Virus record (IMG/VR): IMGVR_UViG_3300037584_002109
Coordinates: 1 to 28,195 of that record
Origin: a virus
Reading direction: 5' to 3' (one strand)
DNA length: 28,195 nt
Shown here piece by piece: positions 17,681-24,730 of this stretch. The number at the start of each line of letters is the position of its first letter. Positions within the stretch are counted from its first letter, which is position 1. The notes beneath the pieces are model-generated. The model did not search any database and was not told the origin of the DNA. It saw only the letters and a list, made by a program, of their open reading frames with translations. A program made the position numbers and the translations under genes.

Positions 17681-17871
17681 TCTTCATCACCTATCTCAAT
17701 TATATCCATCATTTCCTTCTGCGCAAAACCGTACTTAACATCCATTCCGAATCCTATCTCATGCATTATCTGCATCATAGTTACTATTCTCTCTTGGATG
17801 TGGTGCGGTGGGTCACAAGGTTCCCCATCAACATCGTATTGAATTGCTAGTGTCCAAAATTTCTTACTCAT
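17677..17871 (-). CDS. Unknown 64-aa protein
   Basis: The product begins MSKKFWTLAIQYDVDGEPCD, has a central helix (HIQERIVTMMQIMHEIGFG) and an acidic C-terminus. A strand-helix-strand ferredoxin-like unit is possible. It follows the JAMM protease gene with an ATGA overlap. No motif is recognised. Confidence 0.6.
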   Translation of the reverse strand: MSKKFWTLAIQYDVDGEPCDPPHHIQERIVTMMQIMHEIGFGMDVKYGFAQKEMMDIIEIGDEE

Positions 17872-18419
17872 TCTTCTTCACCATCCAATACATCTTCTGC
17901 TACCTTCACCCAATCAGGTTTCTCAACAGGCTCTTGTTGGTAAATACCGTAGTATACCTTCTTCGCTATTTCTGAATTACAGTCATAGGCAATGAATTGA
18001 TTATCACCTAGAACTGTTGCACTCTCCATCATACCCTTCCATGAATGGATAGTTCCCCAATCAGTACCACTGAAGAAAGCCTGTCCGAATGGATGTGTGT
18101 GTATCCAGCATTTCAATGGTAACTTCATACCACCTAATTGCCCTTCTTGGTCTTTGAAACTAACAAACCCAAATGTTCCAACGCTGATATACAAGTCATC
18201 TTTGGCATCAACAATAACCTGAACCTCTCTTGGCGAATCAAATGCCTCAAGAGACTTGTTCCATATCACTGTGTAGAATGCCTCAGTCTGAGGGTCGGGA
18301 AATGGATAGGCGAACTCGATTTGCTCAAACACAGTCTTGATGTCCTCTTTCCAACTTTCATCCTTAATCTCTAATCCCTTTATTCCATTATTATCATATT
18401 CTGTTTCATCTGTTTTCAT
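17868..18419 (-). CDS. JAMM/MPN+ (JAB) metalloprotease
   Basis: This 183-aa protein carries the zinc protease signature HTHPFGQAFFSGTD: His 107, His 109, Ser 117 and Asp 120 form HxH-x10-D with the conserved S-x-x-D. Strands precede it (VQVIVDAKDDLYISV, FGFVSF), as in the JAB fold, and the usual upstream Glu may be Glu 46. JAMM enzymes remove ubiquitin or ubiquitin-like proteins, or trim their C-terminus to expose Gly-Gly. An E1-like gene at 19333-19941 and a GGC-ending beta-grasp gene at 24514-24714 lie in the same operon, so a role with them is attractive. A phage-tail JAB role is less likely, as no NlpC or tail gene is adjacent. Confidence 0.85.
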   Translation of the reverse strand: MKTDETEYDNNGIKGLEIKDESWKEDIKTVFEQIEFAYPFPDPQTEAFYTVIWNKSLEAFDSPREVQVIVDAKDDLYISVGTFGFVSFKDQEGQLGGMKLPLKCWIHTHPFGQAFFSGTDWGTIHSWKGMMESATVLGDNQFIAYDCNSEIAKKVYYGIYQQEPVEKPDWVKVAEDVLDGEEE

Positions 18420-18662
18420 TTATATTCCTCCCATTTGTGTTACTCTTTTATCCTGCTCATTCTCAAACTCATGATATGCTCTATGACCTGCGATGAACCC
18501 GCCTGCGTGTCTCTTGGTTCCCAAGAACTCTTCACCGCAAACAGGACATACAACCTTCACAATCTCTGCTCGCTTGTAATATCCATCTGTGGAAATTATG
18601 GTTATAATCTCCCCAATATCTTCTTCTGATAAGTCATCTATGTTTTCATCCTCTTTACTCAT
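18420..18662 (-). CDS. C2H2-type zinc-finger protein (80 aa)
   Basis: An acidic N-terminus (residues 1-20) is followed by strands ITIISTDG and a CPVCGEEFLGTKRHAGGFIAGH stretch with CxxC and two His, fitting a C2H2-like finger, then a charged tail. It may bind DNA or protein. It sits one base upstream of the JAMM protease gene (TAAATG). Confidence 0.65.
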   Translation of the reverse strand: MSKEDENIDDLSEEDIGEIITIISTDGYYKRAEIVKVVCPVCGEEFLGTKRHAGGFIAGHRAYHEFENEQDKRVTQMGGI

Positions 18663-18666
18663 TCTT

Positions 18667-18945
18667 TCACCTCATATATTGTCGAAGGCTTTTGATTCGC
18701 CTTGGTGCGACCAATCGAGGTTCTTCAACTATAACCTCTGTCTCTTCTATTTCGTTCTGTACTTGTTTGATGTCCATTCCCTTTTGCAAGGGGAGAAGTA
18801 CACTCCTTCTATACTGTTCCTTCCACATGGCCTGAACGCAGCCGTCACAGAACTCAGCAGTCTCTGCCTTACTCTTGGTGATAGGCTCTGCTATCGCTCC
18901 GCATAGCGTCTTGCCGAGAAGTAAGAAATGAATTACCTCACTCAT
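18667..18945 (-). CDS. Small zinc-binding protein (HxnC...CxxC)
   Basis: The 92-aa product has HFLLLGKTLCG at 6-16 and EFCDGCVQAMWKEQ at about 32-45. The His/Cys...CxxC spacing is typical of a small zinc site common in phage and actinobacterial proteins. A long helical, Glu-rich part and a basic tail (RRIKSLRQYMR) follow. No specific function. The ATG overlaps the upstream stop. Confidence 0.6.
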   Translation of the reverse strand: MSEVIHFLLLGKTLCGAIAEPITKSKAETAEFCDGCVQAMWKEQYRRSVLLPLQKGMDIKQVQNEIEETEVIVEEPRLVAPRRIKSLRQYMR

Positions 18946-19172
18946 TCTCCCTTCTCCTTGTAGGCAGGATGCTTCTTCGGCAACCTGTGCAGTCTTCTTA
19001 CAATCATGTTGTTCACTAGATTGGATACTGAGTCAGCACCATCTGCGAATCTCTTGCTTGCAACATCATCACCTGAAGGACACATTCTATCTTCTAATTC
19101 TGTTAAGTCTATTCTATCCATTATATATTTCAATACTTCATATTCAACGTGTATCTTTGAACTCGCTCTCAT
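18942..19172 (-). CDS. Unknown 76-aa helical protein
   Basis: The product starts MRASSKIHVEYEVLKYIMDR and is predicted largely helical with a basic C-terminus (RRLHRLPKKHPAYKEKGE). A single Cys is present, so no zinc site. It lies between the Cys-rich 55-aa gene and a zinc protein with 4-base overlaps on both sides. No family recognised. Confidence 0.6.
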   Translation of the reverse strand: MRASSKIHVEYEVLKYIMDRIDLTELEDRMCPSGDDVASKRFADGADSVSNLVNNMIVRRLHRLPKKHPAYKEKGE

Positions 19173-19336
19173 TCTTCTTCACCTCTACATTTTACGCATG
19201 ATAGATTCTGTTTACATCTACCACAAATTACTCTTGCTTTTGCTAGTGGCAGAAATGCACCTGCACTACTCGCTTCACCTAGAAAGGTCTCAAGCGGATA
19301 GTGACAGGCACATTCCTTGCAGTCGCATTTACTCAT
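19169..19336 (-). CDS. Cys-rich small protein (55 aa), possible two-zinc module
   Basis: Translation gives 55 residues with CDCKECAC near 4-11 and CGRCKQNLSCVKC near 38-50, eight Cys in total, a dense treble-clef or RING-like arrangement. It overlaps the E1-like gene stop (ATGA) and the next start, so it is tightly coupled to the E1. A partner role in the modification pathway, for instance as an E3-like adaptor, is speculative. Confidence 0.6.
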   Translation of the reverse strand: MSKCDCKECACHYPLETFLGEASSAGAFLPLAKARVICGRCKQNLSCVKCRGEEE

Positions 19337-19941
19337 ACTTGCAACACCATCTTATCTACAACGTCATCGTTGTTGTTAAACCACTTCTGTATCCACTGTG
19401 TCGCAATACCAGCAATGGCTATGTTCATGCAATCCACTCCTTGGGGAGTGCCATCCCATTCTCCTGATTGGCAGGAGAAGGAACCCTCGTCACCAGCGAG
19501 AAATGCATCCATCATCTTAGGGTCAATGAGGTACGAGATTAACGCGCCTGTTCGTCCTTGCGCTCTCAAATCAACCCACTTAATCTTAGCATCAGAGCCA
19601 AAGCCCTGCCGATATAGTATACGCCTGACCGCTAGATTGTCTGCACAGCAGATAACCAAGTCGTAGCCAATCATCTGCTTCTCAATCAGAACGTGATATG
19701 GCTCATCTGATACAGAGCCGCCTGCAACCGTGTTGTAGTTCCTATCTGATAGACACTCAACTTTCTTCTCACCTATATCAGACTCAAAGAAGTTCTGATA
19801 GGTGAGATTCTTTCTCTCAACACTATCTTCATCGAAGATTGTTATTCTATATCCTAGCCTTTGGAGGAATTGAGTTAGGAAACTACCTATTCCACCTGCT
19901 CCTATTATCATTACATTTCTATTCATTCTTTTCATTTTCAT
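19333..19941 (-). CDS. E1/ThiF-like adenylyltransferase
   Basis: The ATG at 19941, with GTGAT upstream, gives 202 residues. MIIGAGGIGSFLTQFL (11-26) is the nucleotide-binding loop, and TIFDEDSVERKNLTYQ includes the Asp that holds ATP ribose. SDIGEKKVECL supplies the conserved Lys (59-60) and CCADNLAVRR the C-x-D-N motif (Asp 101). Two Cys (157 and 171) could form the thioester or a zinc site. ThiF/E1 enzymes adenylate the C-terminal Gly of a ubiquitin-like protein. The conserved Arg of 'NRQ' appears as Tyr 48 (NLTYQ). It lacks the C-terminal Ub-fold of eukaryotic E1. The neighbouring JAMM gene supports a conjugation or sulfur-transfer pathway. Confidence 0.85.
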   Translation of the reverse strand: MKMKRMNRNVMIIGAGGIGSFLTQFLQRLGYRITIFDEDSVERKNLTYQNFFESDIGEKKVECLSDRNYNTVAGGSVSDEPYHVLIEKQMIGYDLVICCADNLAVRRILYRQGFGSDAKIKWVDLRAQGRTGALISYLIDPKMMDAFLAGDEGSFSCQSGEWDGTPQGVDCMNIAIAGIATQWIQKWFNNNDDVVDKMVLQV

Positions 19942-20173
19942 ATTTATCACTCATTTCTATTATTCTCATATCTATTTGTTGCTGTTGATAGTGATGCCAC
20001 GCATCGACTATCTCATGTGTTATTCCATCCATCGTCGCACCGACGACTGAGATTGCATCTTCCAGAACAGTTCTCCTGACGACGTTCTTCAACTGCGGCA
20101 GGCTTTCATATTCTTCAATAAATTTACTGAAGTGGATTTGCATTCTTTTCAATGTGTTAATTACTTCTTCCAT
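19919..20173 (-). CDS. Unknown 84-aa helical protein upstream of E1
   Basis: From ATG 20173 (AAGTGAT upstream) the product starts MEEVINTLKRMQIHFSKFIE and is predicted all-helical with Gln-rich and charged ends. No motif is recognised. It overlaps the E1-like start by about 23 bases, so the two are co-translated and may be partners; that is inference. Confidence 0.55.
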   Translation of the reverse strand: MEEVINTLKRMQIHFSKFIEEYESLPQLKNVVRRTVLEDAISVVGATMDGITHEIVDAWHHYQQQQIDMRIIEMSDKYENEKNE

Positions 20174-20177
20174 ACTA

Positions 20178-21062
20178 TCACTTCCATGTTCCATGTACAA
20201 ACTCTGCTACTTTCATATTCAACAAGTCTTTCTTGTCTATGCCAAACCACTCACAAATTTCAGTTAACGATGCTCTTATCCCCATGATGGAACAGTTGCC
20301 TGATGCCTTGCGAATCAGTTCTTGTGTATGGTGTCTTTCATCTTCCATGACGGAAACCGCCCAGATAATAGCGCAAATCTTGTTTGGTGTAAACCTAACA
20401 GCGATTAAATCACAGTATCGATTTACAAAATCAATCATGATGAGAGTGTTGTGTCTGTAATTGCTAGACACGTTATCCAATTTATCCAAGACGGTTGACG
20501 CTACTTGATTTGGGTTTATCGTAGATAGGATGTGTGACTTACGGAAATGCTTGGCTACTCTCTTACCGTATCTAGAGATGTATTTTCTCTCAACCATGCA
20601 GAAGTCACTATGCTTAGTGAGATTCATGGGTATCCCTGACTCCTTGATGATGTAGTAAGTCAAGGACGCTGACCTGTGTTCGACGGGTATACCATTGAAT
20701 ACACGCTCGCTGTTCAGCGAACGTAGATATGACCTAACCAACTCGACGTTCTTGAATGAGTAGTTAGACAATATCATCATACATTGATTGACTGTTCTGA
20801 TGTCTGTCTCTGAGTCATTGCTTGCCCATTTATTGTGCTTCTTCATCCTGAACATCTGATTGGAGTCAGTCTCCATGATGATAGAACCCAATCTGCCCTT
20901 AGTAGGTTCACGTAGTCTCTTCCCGTTGTAGTCCACGCCTCTAACTGATTCCTCAAATGGCCTGACTACATGGACTAAACCACAATCATCACACACATTC
21001 TCACCTAGATGGTCATCGAAGGTGAATGAGGTACACCTGCATTCTGCACATACGCTGTTCAT
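20178..21062 (-). CDS. tfb: Archaeal transcription initiation factor B (TFB)-like protein
   Basis: The 294-aa product has an N-terminal zinc ribbon (CAEC at 5-8, CDDC at 24-27). A B-reader-like segment around GRLGSIIMETDSN corresponds to the 'GL.T.I' region of TFB. Two helical repeats of about 90 residues each (cyclin folds) follow, including IDFVNRYCDLIAVRFTPNKI. TFB recruits RNA polymerase to TATA-bound TBP. A viral TFB could redirect host polymerase to viral promoters such as those proposed at 141-150 and 17223-17230. It starts with an ATGA overlap to the unknown 412-aa gene. Divergence suggests altered promoter choice. Confidence 0.85.
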   Translation of the reverse strand: MNSVCAECRCTSFTFDDHLGENVCDDCGLVHVVRPFEESVRGVDYNGKRLREPTKGRLGSIIMETDSNQMFRMKKHNKWASNDSETDIRTVNQCMMILSNYSFKNVELVRSYLRSLNSERVFNGIPVEHRSASLTYYIIKESGIPMNLTKHSDFCMVERKYISRYGKRVAKHFRKSHILSTINPNQVASTVLDKLDNVSSNYRHNTLIMIDFVNRYCDLIAVRFTPNKICAIIWAVSVMEDERHHTQELIRKASGNCSIMGIRASLTEICEWFGIDKKDLLNMKVAEFVHGTWK

Positions 21063-22297
21063 CTTCTTTCACCTCTCATGTTGGGTTTCCCTTGATATTT
21101 CGCCTTCTCAACTAATCTCTTGTTCAGTCTATATCTAGTAGACTTGATTTCACGCAGAGTCGATACCATTTGCAATGCCATTTTATCATTCTTCAACAGC
21201 ATTGCTCTTGTTGCTATTTGGTCTCCAACCACATTCTTGCCATTTATGTCATCGATGCAGAATGGACCGCTTATCTTCCCATCATTACCATAGAACACCG
21301 AACTACATCTCTGAGTACCGGAAGTGTAGCCGTTTGGATAAACCAGCCAATCTCCAAGTTCTCCATGAACACATAATCCAAAATCAAGGGTTTTTGATAG
21401 TCCACCTAATTTATCAGGTTGGAAAACAGGACTATTTACATTCACAAGAGTAATCGCATCATAAGTAGAATCCATATTCTGAAGAAGTTCAAACGCTCGC
21501 TCTTCCACAATGACATCGGTTCTGTTCTGAAGAAGCCAAGCAGTCATCAATTGTAACTCTGATTCAGAAGCATGACTTCCGAACATATTGAACCAAAGGT
21601 TGGATGGGCTGATGTTAGCCCACTTCTTGGAGCGTGAAGCACCGTTCCTGTAACAGTCGATGAATACATTAGCATCGTTTAGATTGGTTGATGCCCATAC
21701 ATTCTCCGAAATCTCAAAGGCAATATCTTCCTTACCGATTAACTTGGTATTGATTTTCACCTTGATTTGTCTGCCGTCCTTGTAGAACCAGTAAGGTGTT
21801 CTGTTTTCCAGTGCATGTAGGACGTTACCTGAGTATGTGATGTTTCTTTCAATATACTCGACCATGTTTCTGCGACTTCTGTTCTGCGCTCCATAGGCAA
21901 TTACCTTTGCAAGTGCAATCGCAACATCCTTCTGATTCTTCTTAACGCCATTCATATACCACTTGCTACCGTCTTTTCGCAAAACGATAGAAGCATCACC
22001 ATCCTTGTACCTGAATGTGAAATAGGACATCTCACTAGAAAGAGCGTTGGATGAAGTATCCAAGTGCATGAAACTCCTGTGCATCTGCTCTGATAGAGTG
22101 TTCCAATATCCTTCCGAGTGATATTTCCTGTTACCCATTCTGTAGCAGGCTATCTCTATTTCACCATAACGATTCATTCTTCTGTTGTTCCTTCGATTGA
22201 AGTCAGGATTATTGGTCTTGAATAGAAAGGAGGATGTCATATCCCTCTGACTTCTATAGTCCGTTCTCATTCGTGGTAGTTGTACTTTCATTTTCAT
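21059..22297 (-). CDS. Large protein of unknown function (412 aa)
   Basis: ATG 22297 preceded by GGTGAT is the best start and overlaps the previous gene by 44 bases. The N-terminus is Arg-rich (RMRTDYRSQRDMTSS, RRNNRRMNRYG). The body mixes helices and strands with aromatic-rich motifs (YWNTLSEQMHRSFMH; NVWASTNLNDANVFIDCYRN; GELGDWLVYPNGYTSGTQRC) and the C-terminus is basic. It contains Cys but no clear zinc or catalytic pattern. It lies between RNR and TFB and is not recognised. Confidence 0.7.
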   Translation of the reverse strand: MKMKVQLPRMRTDYRSQRDMTSSFLFKTNNPDFNRRNNRRMNRYGEIEIACYRMGNRKYHSEGYWNTLSEQMHRSFMHLDTSSNALSSEMSYFTFRYKDGDASIVLRKDGSKWYMNGVKKNQKDVAIALAKVIAYGAQNRSRRNMVEYIERNITYSGNVLHALENRTPYWFYKDGRQIKVKINTKLIGKEDIAFEISENVWASTNLNDANVFIDCYRNGASRSKKWANISPSNLWFNMFGSHASESELQLMTAWLLQNRTDVIVEERAFELLQNMDSTYDAITLVNVNSPVFQPDKLGGLSKTLDFGLCVHGELGDWLVYPNGYTSGTQRCSSVFYGNDGKISGPFCIDDINGKNVVGDQIATRAMLLKNDKMALQMVSTLREIKSTRYRLNKRLVEKAKYQGKPNMRGERR

Positions 22298-22541
22298 TAA
22301 TATCACCATTTCTTTTATTGTATAATTTCAAGTCGTATATCGAATACAACTCATCTTTCGTTAGTGTACTATATCCCTCGCGGATATAATATCTAATAGC
22401 ATTGAGTATGAAAGTGGATGGAAACCTTCTAGGATTGGCCCTAGTATTGCGATACATATTGGATATTCTTGCCTTTGCACCAGCATTGATTAGACTAGAT
22501 ACAATTTCATCCTCAATTTCTAATATTTGCTTTCTATTCAT
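22254..22541 (-). CDS. Unknown 95-aa basic protein with flexible tail
   Basis: The first 60 residues form a helical basic region (MNRKQILEIEDEIVSSLI, ANPRRFPSTFILNAIRYYIR) that could be a small DNA-binding domain of helix-turn-helix type. The C-terminus is an Asn/Thr/Glu-rich tail (NENESTTTTNENG). The ATG overlaps the RNR stop (ATGA). DNA binding is inferred from charge and shape only. Confidence 0.6.
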   Translation of the reverse strand: MNRKQILEIEDEIVSSLINAGAKARISNMYRNTRANPRRFPSTFILNAIRYYIREGYSTLTKDELYSIYDLKLYNKRNGDINENESTTTTNENGL

Positions 22542-24427
22542 ATTTCACAGACTCCGCCTGCACAAGCAAGTTCGCCTTGCAGGTCAGTGTTGTCTTCTAA
22601 CTCAACGACTTCTGTTAGATTAACCTCAGTCAGAAGTTTTAGCATGGTCTCGTACTGCTTCTTACCTATCGGTTCGTGTGGTGCTTGTTTGTACACCCCA
22701 CCGTCGAAAGGTAGCACAGAAAGACCGTTGTAGAAGTCTCTGTTCTTCCACATCCAGTTCCTTACGTCATCCCATTCATCCTCACGGATGTTGACAGTTG
22801 CAGAAACATTGTGAGTGTTGACACCTCGATTGTGTCCTGTTACAACCCAATCGACTGATACTCTCTTTACTCTCTCCAACATCTCCAATGCTGATTCATC
22901 TCTTGTTATCGAATTACCAGCAGGTGTCTTCTGAGGTATGGAGATGATAGCCTGATTCGGATTGTGGTAGTCGTCCTCCACTAAATCAGGGAACTTGGTT
23001 ATCAGGTAATCATAGATTGCCTCTGTCTTCAACACCCTGATTCTCCTGATGTAGTATTCAGACCACCAAGCATGGATGCCTGATGATGTTCCCATGACTA
23101 GACTGGTGGTTCCAGCAGGTTTGACGCATGTTATTCTCGCTGCCGTTTTGATGCCCAACGCGGTTGAGAAATACTCATTTGTGCTTCTTGCTTTGTTAGC
23201 AGCAGCCTCCATGTCTAAGTTTAGAACACTACCACTTGCTATTCCAGTCATTGACACTCCTAGCAGTGCGTCTTTCTCGGATGTCTTCTTCCATACTTCC
23301 CTAAGATAGTGGAAGTCGGTATATGACGCTTGTAGTGTTCCTAAGAAAGTAGCATGTTCCACTCTCTTGTTCAACTCTGCTTGATTTGACACATCTGATA
23401 CATTCACTTCTGTCAAGTTACAGAATTGATATGGTCTAAGGGCAATCTCACAACAAGGGTTGGTTCCCCAATCCTTGTCATTCGTGAAATAGAATCCCGG
23501 TTCTCCTGAACCTGAGTCTTGAACTCTCTTCCATAGATTGTTGAAGAAGTCCCTCTTGATTCTGTGTCGTAGTAGTACGACTGAGTTGTTTGCTCTTGCT
23601 CTCTGTGGGTTCTTCTCCCAAAAGTGTCCTGACTTCGATGTTATCATGTCATCGTCATCAGCACTGAACAAACTGATTAGTGCTGCTCTGCGAATACCGC
23701 CTGCCAACACTGCATCTGCAATGTAGCAAACGATATCGTGTGCTTCCAATGTGGTTAGTTTGTCTCCATTATCCTTGTTTGCAAGTATGCCTTCGACCTT
23801 AACTAGACATTCCTTCAGGGGTTGTGGGCCGGGTGCTTTACCACCACTAGTCTTCAACAACGCACCTTTCGGTCTGATGTCTGAGTAATCGAATCTAACT
23901 GTAGTTGCCCTCTTACCGATGTAAGACTCAAACAGAACCTTGACTGCATCTGCCCATCCTTCGATTGAATCTGCAATCAGATGTCTGTAAGTTCTCTTAG
24001 GGTTAGGTAGTCTAATCTCAGGTAACTTGTCAACATGATGACGTTGAACCGAGTAACCTACACCTGTTCCACCGAGCAATAGGAACATTGCCTCTGAGAA
24101 CGAGAGATAATGGTCAATAGGCATGTAAGCACAATTGTACACACGATTAGGTGATAGTTCAATCGGCTTTCCTGCGAATTGCATTGACCTCATTGACGGT
24201 AGTATCTTCTTGGGGATAACATAGTTGTCGTATGTTTCGTGAATCTTATTCTTGAGAGTTTCAACTACATCATCCGATAGTTCTCTCTTAGTTATTGAAT
24301 CTAAATGCATTTGCCTGTTTCTCTGACAAATCTCTTCCCATGTTTCTTTTCTCTTATCTGCTTCTTTCCACTTTGCATACTTCATATGTACAGTGATATC
24401 TGATAGTATTTCTTGTTGTATTTCCAT
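22538..24427 (-). CDS. nrdJ: B12-dependent class II ribonucleotide reductase, monomeric type
   Basis: The ATG at 24427 lies behind AGGAG and gives 629 residues. Features include the N-terminal Cys in YNCAYMP, the active-site NPCCEIALRPYQFCNLTEVN holding the radical Cys and catalytic Glu, and a C-terminal redox Cys pair (ACAGGVCEI). The lack of a small radical subunit or glycyl-radical end fits the monomeric adenosylcobalamin enzyme that reduces ribonucleoside triphosphates. It supplies dNTPs for replication; host B12 is required. At 629 residues it is somewhat shorter than the Lactobacillus enzyme (739). Its upstream gap holds a 7-bp hairpin. Confidence 0.92.
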   Translation of the reverse strand: MEIQQEILSDITVHMKYAKWKEADKRKETWEEICQRNRQMHLDSITKRELSDDVVETLKNKIHETYDNYVIPKKILPSMRSMQFAGKPIELSPNRVYNCAYMPIDHYLSFSEAMFLLLGGTGVGYSVQRHHVDKLPEIRLPNPKRTYRHLIADSIEGWADAVKVLFESYIGKRATTVRFDYSDIRPKGALLKTSGGKAPGPQPLKECLVKVEGILANKDNGDKLTTLEAHDIVCYIADAVLAGGIRRAALISLFSADDDDMITSKSGHFWEKNPQRARANNSVVLLRHRIKRDFFNNLWKRVQDSGSGEPGFYFTNDKDWGTNPCCEIALRPYQFCNLTEVNVSDVSNQAELNKRVEHATFLGTLQASYTDFHYLREVWKKTSEKDALLGVSMTGIASGSVLNLDMEAAANKARSTNEYFSTALGIKTAARITCVKPAGTTSLVMGTSSGIHAWWSEYYIRRIRVLKTEAIYDYLITKFPDLVEDDYHNPNQAIISIPQKTPAGNSITRDESALEMLERVKRVSVDWVVTGHNRGVNTHNVSATVNIREDEWDDVRNWMWKNRDFYNGLSVLPFDGGVYKQAPHEPIGKKQYETMLKLLTEVNLTEVVELEDNTDLQGELACAGGVCEI

Positions 24428-24448
24428 TTTCTCATCTCCTATGATTGG

Positions 24449-24469
24449 AAGTAGGCTTTGCACCTACTT
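24449..24469 (-). promoter_or_regulatory. 7-bp hairpin in the RNR leader
   Basis: AAGTAGG and CCTACTT are perfect complements around a 7-base loop, 22 bases before the RNR ATG and beyond its AGGAG. No T tract follows. It may shield or time translation of RNR, or be a processing site. It is too small to be a B12 riboswitch. The ~86-base gap between the Ubl gene and RNR otherwise shows no gene or TATA box. Confidence 0.5.
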
Positions 24470-24513
24470 GACAGTCAATCTAACTACTGCTAAGACTTGG
24501 GTTGCGTGTTAAT

Positions 24514-24714
24514 CTAACATCCGCCAACTACTGCTTGTTGTAGGCGAACTTCGTTGACGGTCTCCCAATCAACGTCGGGGATATTCTCCCTGAGAACCAT
24601 GTCTCCGTCAATGAACACCCAATGTGTCGGATGGTCATTTATCTGCTCAAGAGCAGAGACTTGGTTTACTTCCATTTCTGTGTGGCCTGTTTCGTTTGCT
24701 ATTATCAATTTCAT
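24514..24714 (-). CDS. Beta-grasp ubiquitin-like protein with C-terminal Gly-Gly-Cys
   Basis: The 66-aa product has the layout of a Ubl/ThiS/MoaD fold: strand MKLIIANET, strand TEMEVNQVS, helix ALEQINDH, strand HWVFIDGDMVLREN, loop, and a final strand NEVRLQQAVVGG. It ends AVVGGC, i.e. Gly64-Gly65 plus one extra Cys. Ubl proteins need an exposed Gly-Gly tail, and a single extra residue would have to be removed by a protease such as the JAMM enzyme at 17868. The E1-like gene completes the set. It could serve conjugation or sulfur carriage. A GGAGG seven bases before the ATG predicts strong translation. The fold call is from sequence pattern. Confidence 0.6.
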   Translation of the reverse strand: MKLIIANETGHTEMEVNQVSALEQINDHPTHWVFIDGDMVLRENIPDVDWETVNEVRLQQAVVGGC

Positions 24715-24730
24715 ATTTTTTCCTCCATTT

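Follow-up and report, generated by a model that had tools for sequence, protein, structure and literature searches.

Sets that combine a ubiquitin-like protein (Ubl), an E1-like enzyme and a JAMM (JAB) metalloprotease are already known from archaeal cells and bacterial mobile elements, and Ubl-JAB pairs are known from phage tail modules. In archaea, SAMP1 and HvJAMM1 provide a protein modification that a JAMM enzyme reverses (PMC4443979), and in Caldiarchaeum subterraneum a single JAMM, CsRpn11, both trims the ubiquitin precursor after its Gly-Gly and removes ubiquitin from proteins (PMC6043591). On bacterial plasmids, the PRTRC system (row 6d in Iyer et al. 2006) comprises a ubiquitin-like protein, a JAB protein, E1-like and E2-like proteins and a helical protein. 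The literature searched contains no description of Ubl-E1-JAMM as fixed core genes in a lineage of viruses, nor of the set in magroviruses; the main magrovirus papers lie outside that search, and single genes may have been annotated there earlier. Here we describe such a set from widespread ocean viruses with a resemblance to those known from marine archaea, and it suggests that these archaeal ocean viruses run their own protein-tagging system.

The window (the whole stretch of DNA analysed, 28,195 nucleotides) is part of the genome of a tailed, magrovirus-like virus of archaea, and all its substantial genes lie on the minus strand. It encodes a split family-B DNA polymerase (PolB), an RFC-like AAA ATPase, an ATP-dependent ligase, ERCC4 and PD-(D/E)XK nucleases, a TFIIB-like factor and a B12-dependent ribonucleotide reductase, and its best-covered PolB matches among phage records are haloarchaeal tailed viruses. 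Split PolB, an RFC-like clamp loader, ligase, TFB, a genome of 90-110 kb and kinship with haloarchaeal tailed viruses are traits of Magrovirales, and the ICTV profiles of Aoguangviridae and Apasviridae describe a replication block of this type in magroviruses of Poseidoniales (PMC10768690, PMC12999244). The gene content of the window agrees with these profiles, compared by profile description rather than with reference genomes. We infer that the virus belongs to Magrovirales and has an archaeal host. The Ubl-E1-JAMM block also occurs on a contig of 184,733 bases (L318), nearly twice the stated Magrovirales genome size, which may be a larger relative or an assembly artefact.

The Ubl gene (24514..24714, minus strand) is preceded by a Shine-Dalgarno sequence, GGAGGA, at 24721..24726 on the same strand, and encodes 66 aa ending in Val-Gly-Gly-Cys. 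We found no credible sequence match for the protein in Pfam, PHROGs or NCBIfam. Its AlphaFold model has the order b-b-a-b-b-a-b (pLDDT 82.7, pTM 0.62) and leaves the Gly-Gly tail disordered; structural comparison places it nearest to MoaD (Z 5.5), SAMP2 bound to JAMM1 (5.1) and TtuB (5.1), together with a bacterial Ubl from an E1-E2-Ubl complex (Z 5.0). The scores of about 5 are modest, as one would expect of a protein with only 66 residues; the best neighbours have the ubiquitin fold throughout, and it is on this consistent list, rather than on the Z score, that the case for the modelled fold rests. Hence, the model and its neighbours agree with the beta-grasp fold proposed for this protein in the first-pass annotation.

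Corroborating the Ubl assignment, each of the 93 distinct homologues keeps the C-terminal Gly-Gly (as VGG in 86 and in other forms in 7), within a family whose sequence signature is NETGHT...INDHPTHW...VGG. After the Gly-Gly there is no residue in 7 proteins, one in 41, two in 44 and seven in one, so that 92/93 have a tail of 0-2 residues, and the identity of these residues is free (Y, C, SL, Q, SQ, NQ, NC, L, RF and others). A tail that is short but free in identity is the pattern expected if a protease removes it, in line with the trimming suggested earlier. The terminal Cys, to which the annotation had drawn attention, proved to be incidental: it is one tail residue among many, Tyr is commoner, and some homologues stop exactly at Gly-Gly. 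The Gly-Gly is written by 13 different codon pairs among 101 distinct DNA sequences, which argues for selection at the protein level; we therefore rejected the idea that it is a by-product of a Shine-Dalgarno sequence, for which there is also no close downstream start. The Ubl, E1 and JAMM genes all evolve under purifying selection (dN/dS 0.04-0.12). A cellular origin of the Ubl was likewise rejected, as a genome scan gave only two contigs from a flavobacterial MAG and one spurious match. The two contigs (L221 and L222), which are binned in the MAG of Altibacter sp. EAC109, are virus-like, and L222 also carries the conserved neighbour family 1 (see below); they are probably contamination by misbinned virus.

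The E1-like/ThiF adenylyltransferase (19333..19950, minus strand, 205 aa) matches Pfam PF00899 with E=3e-18 and 66 bits (cut-off 28.1); translation probably begins a few codons after the listed GTG. Its best NCBIfam match is PRTRC_ThiF (1e-14), and its profile matches in the PDB are UBA5, MoeB, Uba4, Cap2 and ThiF. Invariant in 79/79 distinct E1s are the GxGGIG loop, D40 and D42 (DxD), N48, Q52, K63, C101, C102, D104, R109 and C160, so that the GxGxxG, DxD, Lys and catalytic Asp typical of the E1/ThiF/MoeB superfamily are all in place. C160 follows the adenylation core and falls in the same alignment column as the Cys conserved among PRTRC ThiF proteins, making it the likely thioester Cys, as judged from sequence. 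The protein carries neither a rhodanese domain nor the extra domains of dedicated ubiquitin E1s.

The JAMM/MPN+ metalloprotease (17868..18419, minus strand, 183 aa, HTHP..AFFSGTD) is weak in Pfam (Prok-JAB 0.017), and a profile of its family (62 sequences) matches AMSH-LP/STAMBP in the PDB with E=9e-6 and also CsRpn11, across the active site. The AlphaFold model (pLDDT 88.8) superposes best on Pyrococcus JAMM1 (Z 9.2, rmsd 3.2, 108 residues), followed by Cap3, AMSH, Rpn11 and CsRpn11 (CsRpn11:Ub Z 8.1); the fold is thus nearest to JAMMs that cleave Ubls. We found E65, H107, T108, H109, P110, S117 and D120 invariant in 87/87 distinct JAMMs; the site H107, H109 and D120 is thus as intact as first read, and the invariance and position of E65 point to it as the catalytic Glu. 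The end of the gene, GAAGAAGAATGAGTAAG, extends into the next gene, and the protein has a conserved ending, ...EEE, which is probably a by-product of the overlapping Shine-Dalgarno sequence. Such acidic endings are common (ORFs at window positions 17868, 19169, 27150 and 27880 and many in relatives) and in general look like by-products of this kind.

The three genes, which lie on one strand within 7 kb of the window as first described, were then considered in related viruses by searching whole viral records with one profile per family. The Ubl and the E1 were each found in 44 of 45 magrovirus-like records, and the JAMM in 43. One 66-kb record (G009) lacks all three; it starts about 4 kb before the polymerase gene, short of the expected position of the block. 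Another (G045) lacks only the JAMM, and it stops about 0.4 kb past the E1. Hence, the gaps are due to contig ends. All three genes are also found in 15/16 records chosen by the polymerase alone, so their co-occurrence is independent of selecting records by these genes. None of the three was found in the haloarchaeal tailed viruses HVTV-1, VOLN27B and HGTV-1, and a search of INPHARED gave no Ubl or JAMM match and three weak ThiF matches. The order Ubl, E1, JAMM on one strand is kept in 95/95 distinct loci; these loci were selected for having all three genes, so only order and strand count as evidence. E1 and JAMM are separated by -9 to 2010 bases, with the genes abutting or overlapping in 6/95 loci. 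Apparently, Ubl-E1-JAMM is a single-copy core set of this virus group. The three points that the first-pass annotation had named as possible refutations (Ubl fold, Gly-Gly in homologues, and the three genes together in related genomes) all came out in its favour.

Since any lineage's core genes co-occur, the three could be functionally unrelated and share only the kinship of their viruses; the Ubl and JAMM might, for example, help to build the virion or tail, as happens in lambda, and the ThiF protein might act separately. Tail modules of the lambda type do have a Ubl-JAB pair without an E1 (PMC1779556). Vertical inheritance indeed accounts for part of the co-occurrence in related viruses. However, 22/79 loci lack the reductase that otherwise adjoins the Ubl in the block and still keep the set, which gives the co-occurrence more weight than vertical inheritance alone would. 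In addition, the set is surrounded by genes for replication and transcription (PolB, RFC, ligase, TFIIB-like and RNR) and does not lie in a tail module, its E1 is intact, and its free-standing Ubl keeps a universal Gly-Gly and a tail that can be cut. We consider three unrelated genes very improbable.

Instead, the viruses are, in our judgement, fairly likely to have a reversible ubiquitin-like modification system of their own, for which we infer trimming, activation, conjugation and deconjugation. The JAMM would cut off the 0-2 residues past Gly-Gly to give the mature Ubl, whose terminal Gly would be adenylated by the ThiF-type E1 through its Gly-rich ATP loop, K63 and D104. The Ubl would probably be held on C160 of the E1 as a thioester and might then be attached to lysine residues, either of host proteins or of viral proteins that act in replication or transcription. 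The E1 could make this transfer directly, as happens in archaeal SAMPylation, or an unrecognised transfer protein could take part; with its invariant C351, family 1 is the first candidate for that role. Finally, the JAMM would take the tag off again. Counting against this reading are the missing extra domains of the E1 and the negative searches for the E2 families UQ_con and Prok-E2_D.

ThiS, TtuB and the Ubls of quinolobactin and PDTC synthesis act as sulfur carriers. Sulfur carriage is the main rival to a tagging system because archaeal Ubls can do both (PMC2948915). The JAMM would expose the Gly-Gly, the E1 would adenylate it, a host sulfurtransferase would form the thiocarboxylate, and the Ubl would deliver sulfur for tRNA thiolation or a cofactor during infection. 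The size and layout of the viral Ubl are ThiS-like, TtuB and MoaD are among its best structural matches, a link to tRNA thiolation is known for archaeal Ubls of the ThiS family (PMC2948915), and operons of JAB, E1 and ThiS/MoaD proteins are known for sulfur-containing siderophores (PMC1779556). However, classical ThiS and MoaD operons never have a JAB protein (PMC1779556), the viral E1 is without a rhodanese domain, and rhodanese (PF00581), cysteine-desulfurase-type aminotransferase (PF00266) and the PP-loop thiolase ATP_bind_3 (PF01171) were each found in 0/36 large viral records, with the control profiles positive in 13-14 of 14 genomes. Host enzymes could supply these steps, so the missing viral partners do no more than lower the probability of sulfur carriage; we regard it as unlikely, with a chance that is still appreciable.

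A further proposal is that the set counters host defence or hijacks the host SAMP system, the viral JAMM stripping host Ubl tags that restrict the virus and the viral Ubl and E1 competing with those tags. In bacteria, phages can be restricted by Ubl conjugation, and the many deSAMPylases of Borg elements have been interpreted as possible counter-defence (PMC12660748). A virus that merely strips host tags would not need its own Ubl and E1. Counter-defence genes are usually patchy and fast-evolving, whereas this set is single-copy, found wherever a record spans its position, and under purifying selection (dN/dS 0.04-0.12). A single-copy, universal set makes counter-defence less likely, and we hold it to be improbable. 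Since the set is never missing where a record covers its place, we think that it serves the basic virus cycle, by controlling proteins or their turnover as the virus replicates, and is not an optional counter-defence. Of the three functions that the first-pass annotation had left side by side, tagging is the one we favour, and the context speaks against both a self-contained sulfur pathway and a patchy anti-defence accessory. If the viral proteins do conjugate, Archaea would have a reversible protein-tagging cycle that is run by a virus. Such a cycle would offer a compact model of how ubiquitin evolved at an early stage and a concrete way to study the control that uncultured viruses exert over archaea that are among the most abundant in the sea.

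Between the Ubl and E1 genes lies family 1, a conserved protein of 416 aa in the window (21059..22309, minus strand), which occupies this place in 79/79 distinct loci; the TFIIB-like gene is there in 76/79. Although its members diverge quickly, with 22-69% identity to the copy in the window, family 1 has an invariant Cys, C351 (GPFCIDD in the window), within 'GPICIDN...SSxGDQ...ND', reminiscent of the E2 motif 'GxICLD'. A family 1 profile had no match in the PDB, nor did a Pfam scan of 47 members give one. With hhalign against five E2s, the best match lay on the Cys motif with a score of 18.2, which was equalled by 2/100 column shuffles; as a positive control, PRTRC_B against E2 scored 33.2, with 0/100 shuffles as high. 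The family 1 alignments were not significant against PRTRC_B or against the E2 reference sequences. Known E2 families were also not found: UQ_con in 0/36 viral records, and Prok-E2_D (PF14460, PRTRC protein B) in 0/25 at E<=10, with plasmid controls positive. As an unproven lead from sequence comparison, family 1 is a candidate E2-like transfer enzyme or a substrate. A complete viral cascade, in which Ubl, E1 and JAMM would be joined by family 1 as a new E2-like protein acting through C351, as the universal core of a whole archaeal virus order and tagging replication or transcription proteins, is a speculative extension that we consider rather doubtful.

The small zinc proteins between E1 and JAMM had been suggested as adaptors. 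They include a C2H2-like protein of family 15 (18420..18662, minus strand), which is present in 35/79 loci, and families 24 and 28 in 22/79 and 14/79 loci, respectively; a small Cys-rich, zinc-binding-like protein (19169..19336, minus strand) is not conserved across the group. We rejected these proteins as E3 adaptors or core parts, as they are lineage-specific and as several lineages leave no space for them, with E1 and JAMM genes that abut or overlap. The description of the locus as one operon is likewise not supported, with about 10 ORFs, the E1 among them, separating Ubl from JAMM in the window and a structured RNA leader following the Ubl gene.

This leader (window 24420-24513, minus strand) runs from the Ubl stop to the start of the B12-dependent ribonucleotide reductase (window 22538-24463, minus strand), and is found at the same place in L101-L116. 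Its features are an invariant GTCTTA and two hairpins that show compensatory changes; the Shine-Dalgarno sequence would be masked by a third pairing. The listed GTG start of the reductase is probably too early, and a conserved Shine-Dalgarno sequence and ATG past the leader mark the likely start. The leader has no Rfam match, even at E=1, and could be a new cis-regulatory RNA or riboswitch.

Among the systems compared, PRTRC shares the E1 type (best NCBIfam match PRTRC_ThiF, with a common Cys and W-D-L region), the JAMM active-site pattern AFFSxxD and the close placement of Ubl, E1 and JAMM. However, the viral E1 scores 54.4 bits against a PRTRC_ThiF cut-off of 144.75 (TIGR03736), the viral records have no Prok-E2_D (0/25), and neither the PRTRC ParB nor proteins D-F were seen. 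The viral Ubl ends in Gly-Gly and a free tail, whereas the PRTRC protein C compared ends in GTKG, and the viral set is hosted by archaeal viruses.

The SAMP system (SAMP1/2, UbaA and HvJAMM1/Pyrococcus JAMM1) similarly has a free-standing beta-grasp Ubl with Gly-Gly, one E1 and one JAMM, and the viral models lie closest to Pyrococcus JAMM1 and near SAMP2. SAMPs are cellular, whereas the viral Ubl has its own signature, a trimmable tail and a fixed linkage to E1 and JAMM, and the viral E1 scores 41 bits against the UbaA cut-off of 450 (NF047750). The Ub-E1-E2-RING-Rpn11 operon of C. subterraneum shares a JAMM of the AMSH/Rpn11 type; it differs in being cellular and in having a recognised E2 and RING, a true ubiquitin-like sequence and a 9-residue precursor tail.

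Borgs resemble the viruses in carrying JAMM enzymes (deSAMPylases) and, in Lilac Borg, a SAMP on an archaeal extrachromosomal element. In contrast, their reported E1 is in the host genome, and their JAMMs are multicopy and diversified rather than part of a single-copy virus core set (PMC12660748). The tail proteins I (Ubl) and K (JAB and NlpC) of lambda and T1 likewise place a phage Ubl with a conserved C-terminal Gly beside a JAB domain, though in a tail module, with the Ubl fused to another domain and without an E1 (PMC1779556). With an E1 far below the PRTRC and UbaA cut-offs, no Prok-E2_D and a Ubl signature of its own, the viral set therefore stands outside each of the definitions tested.
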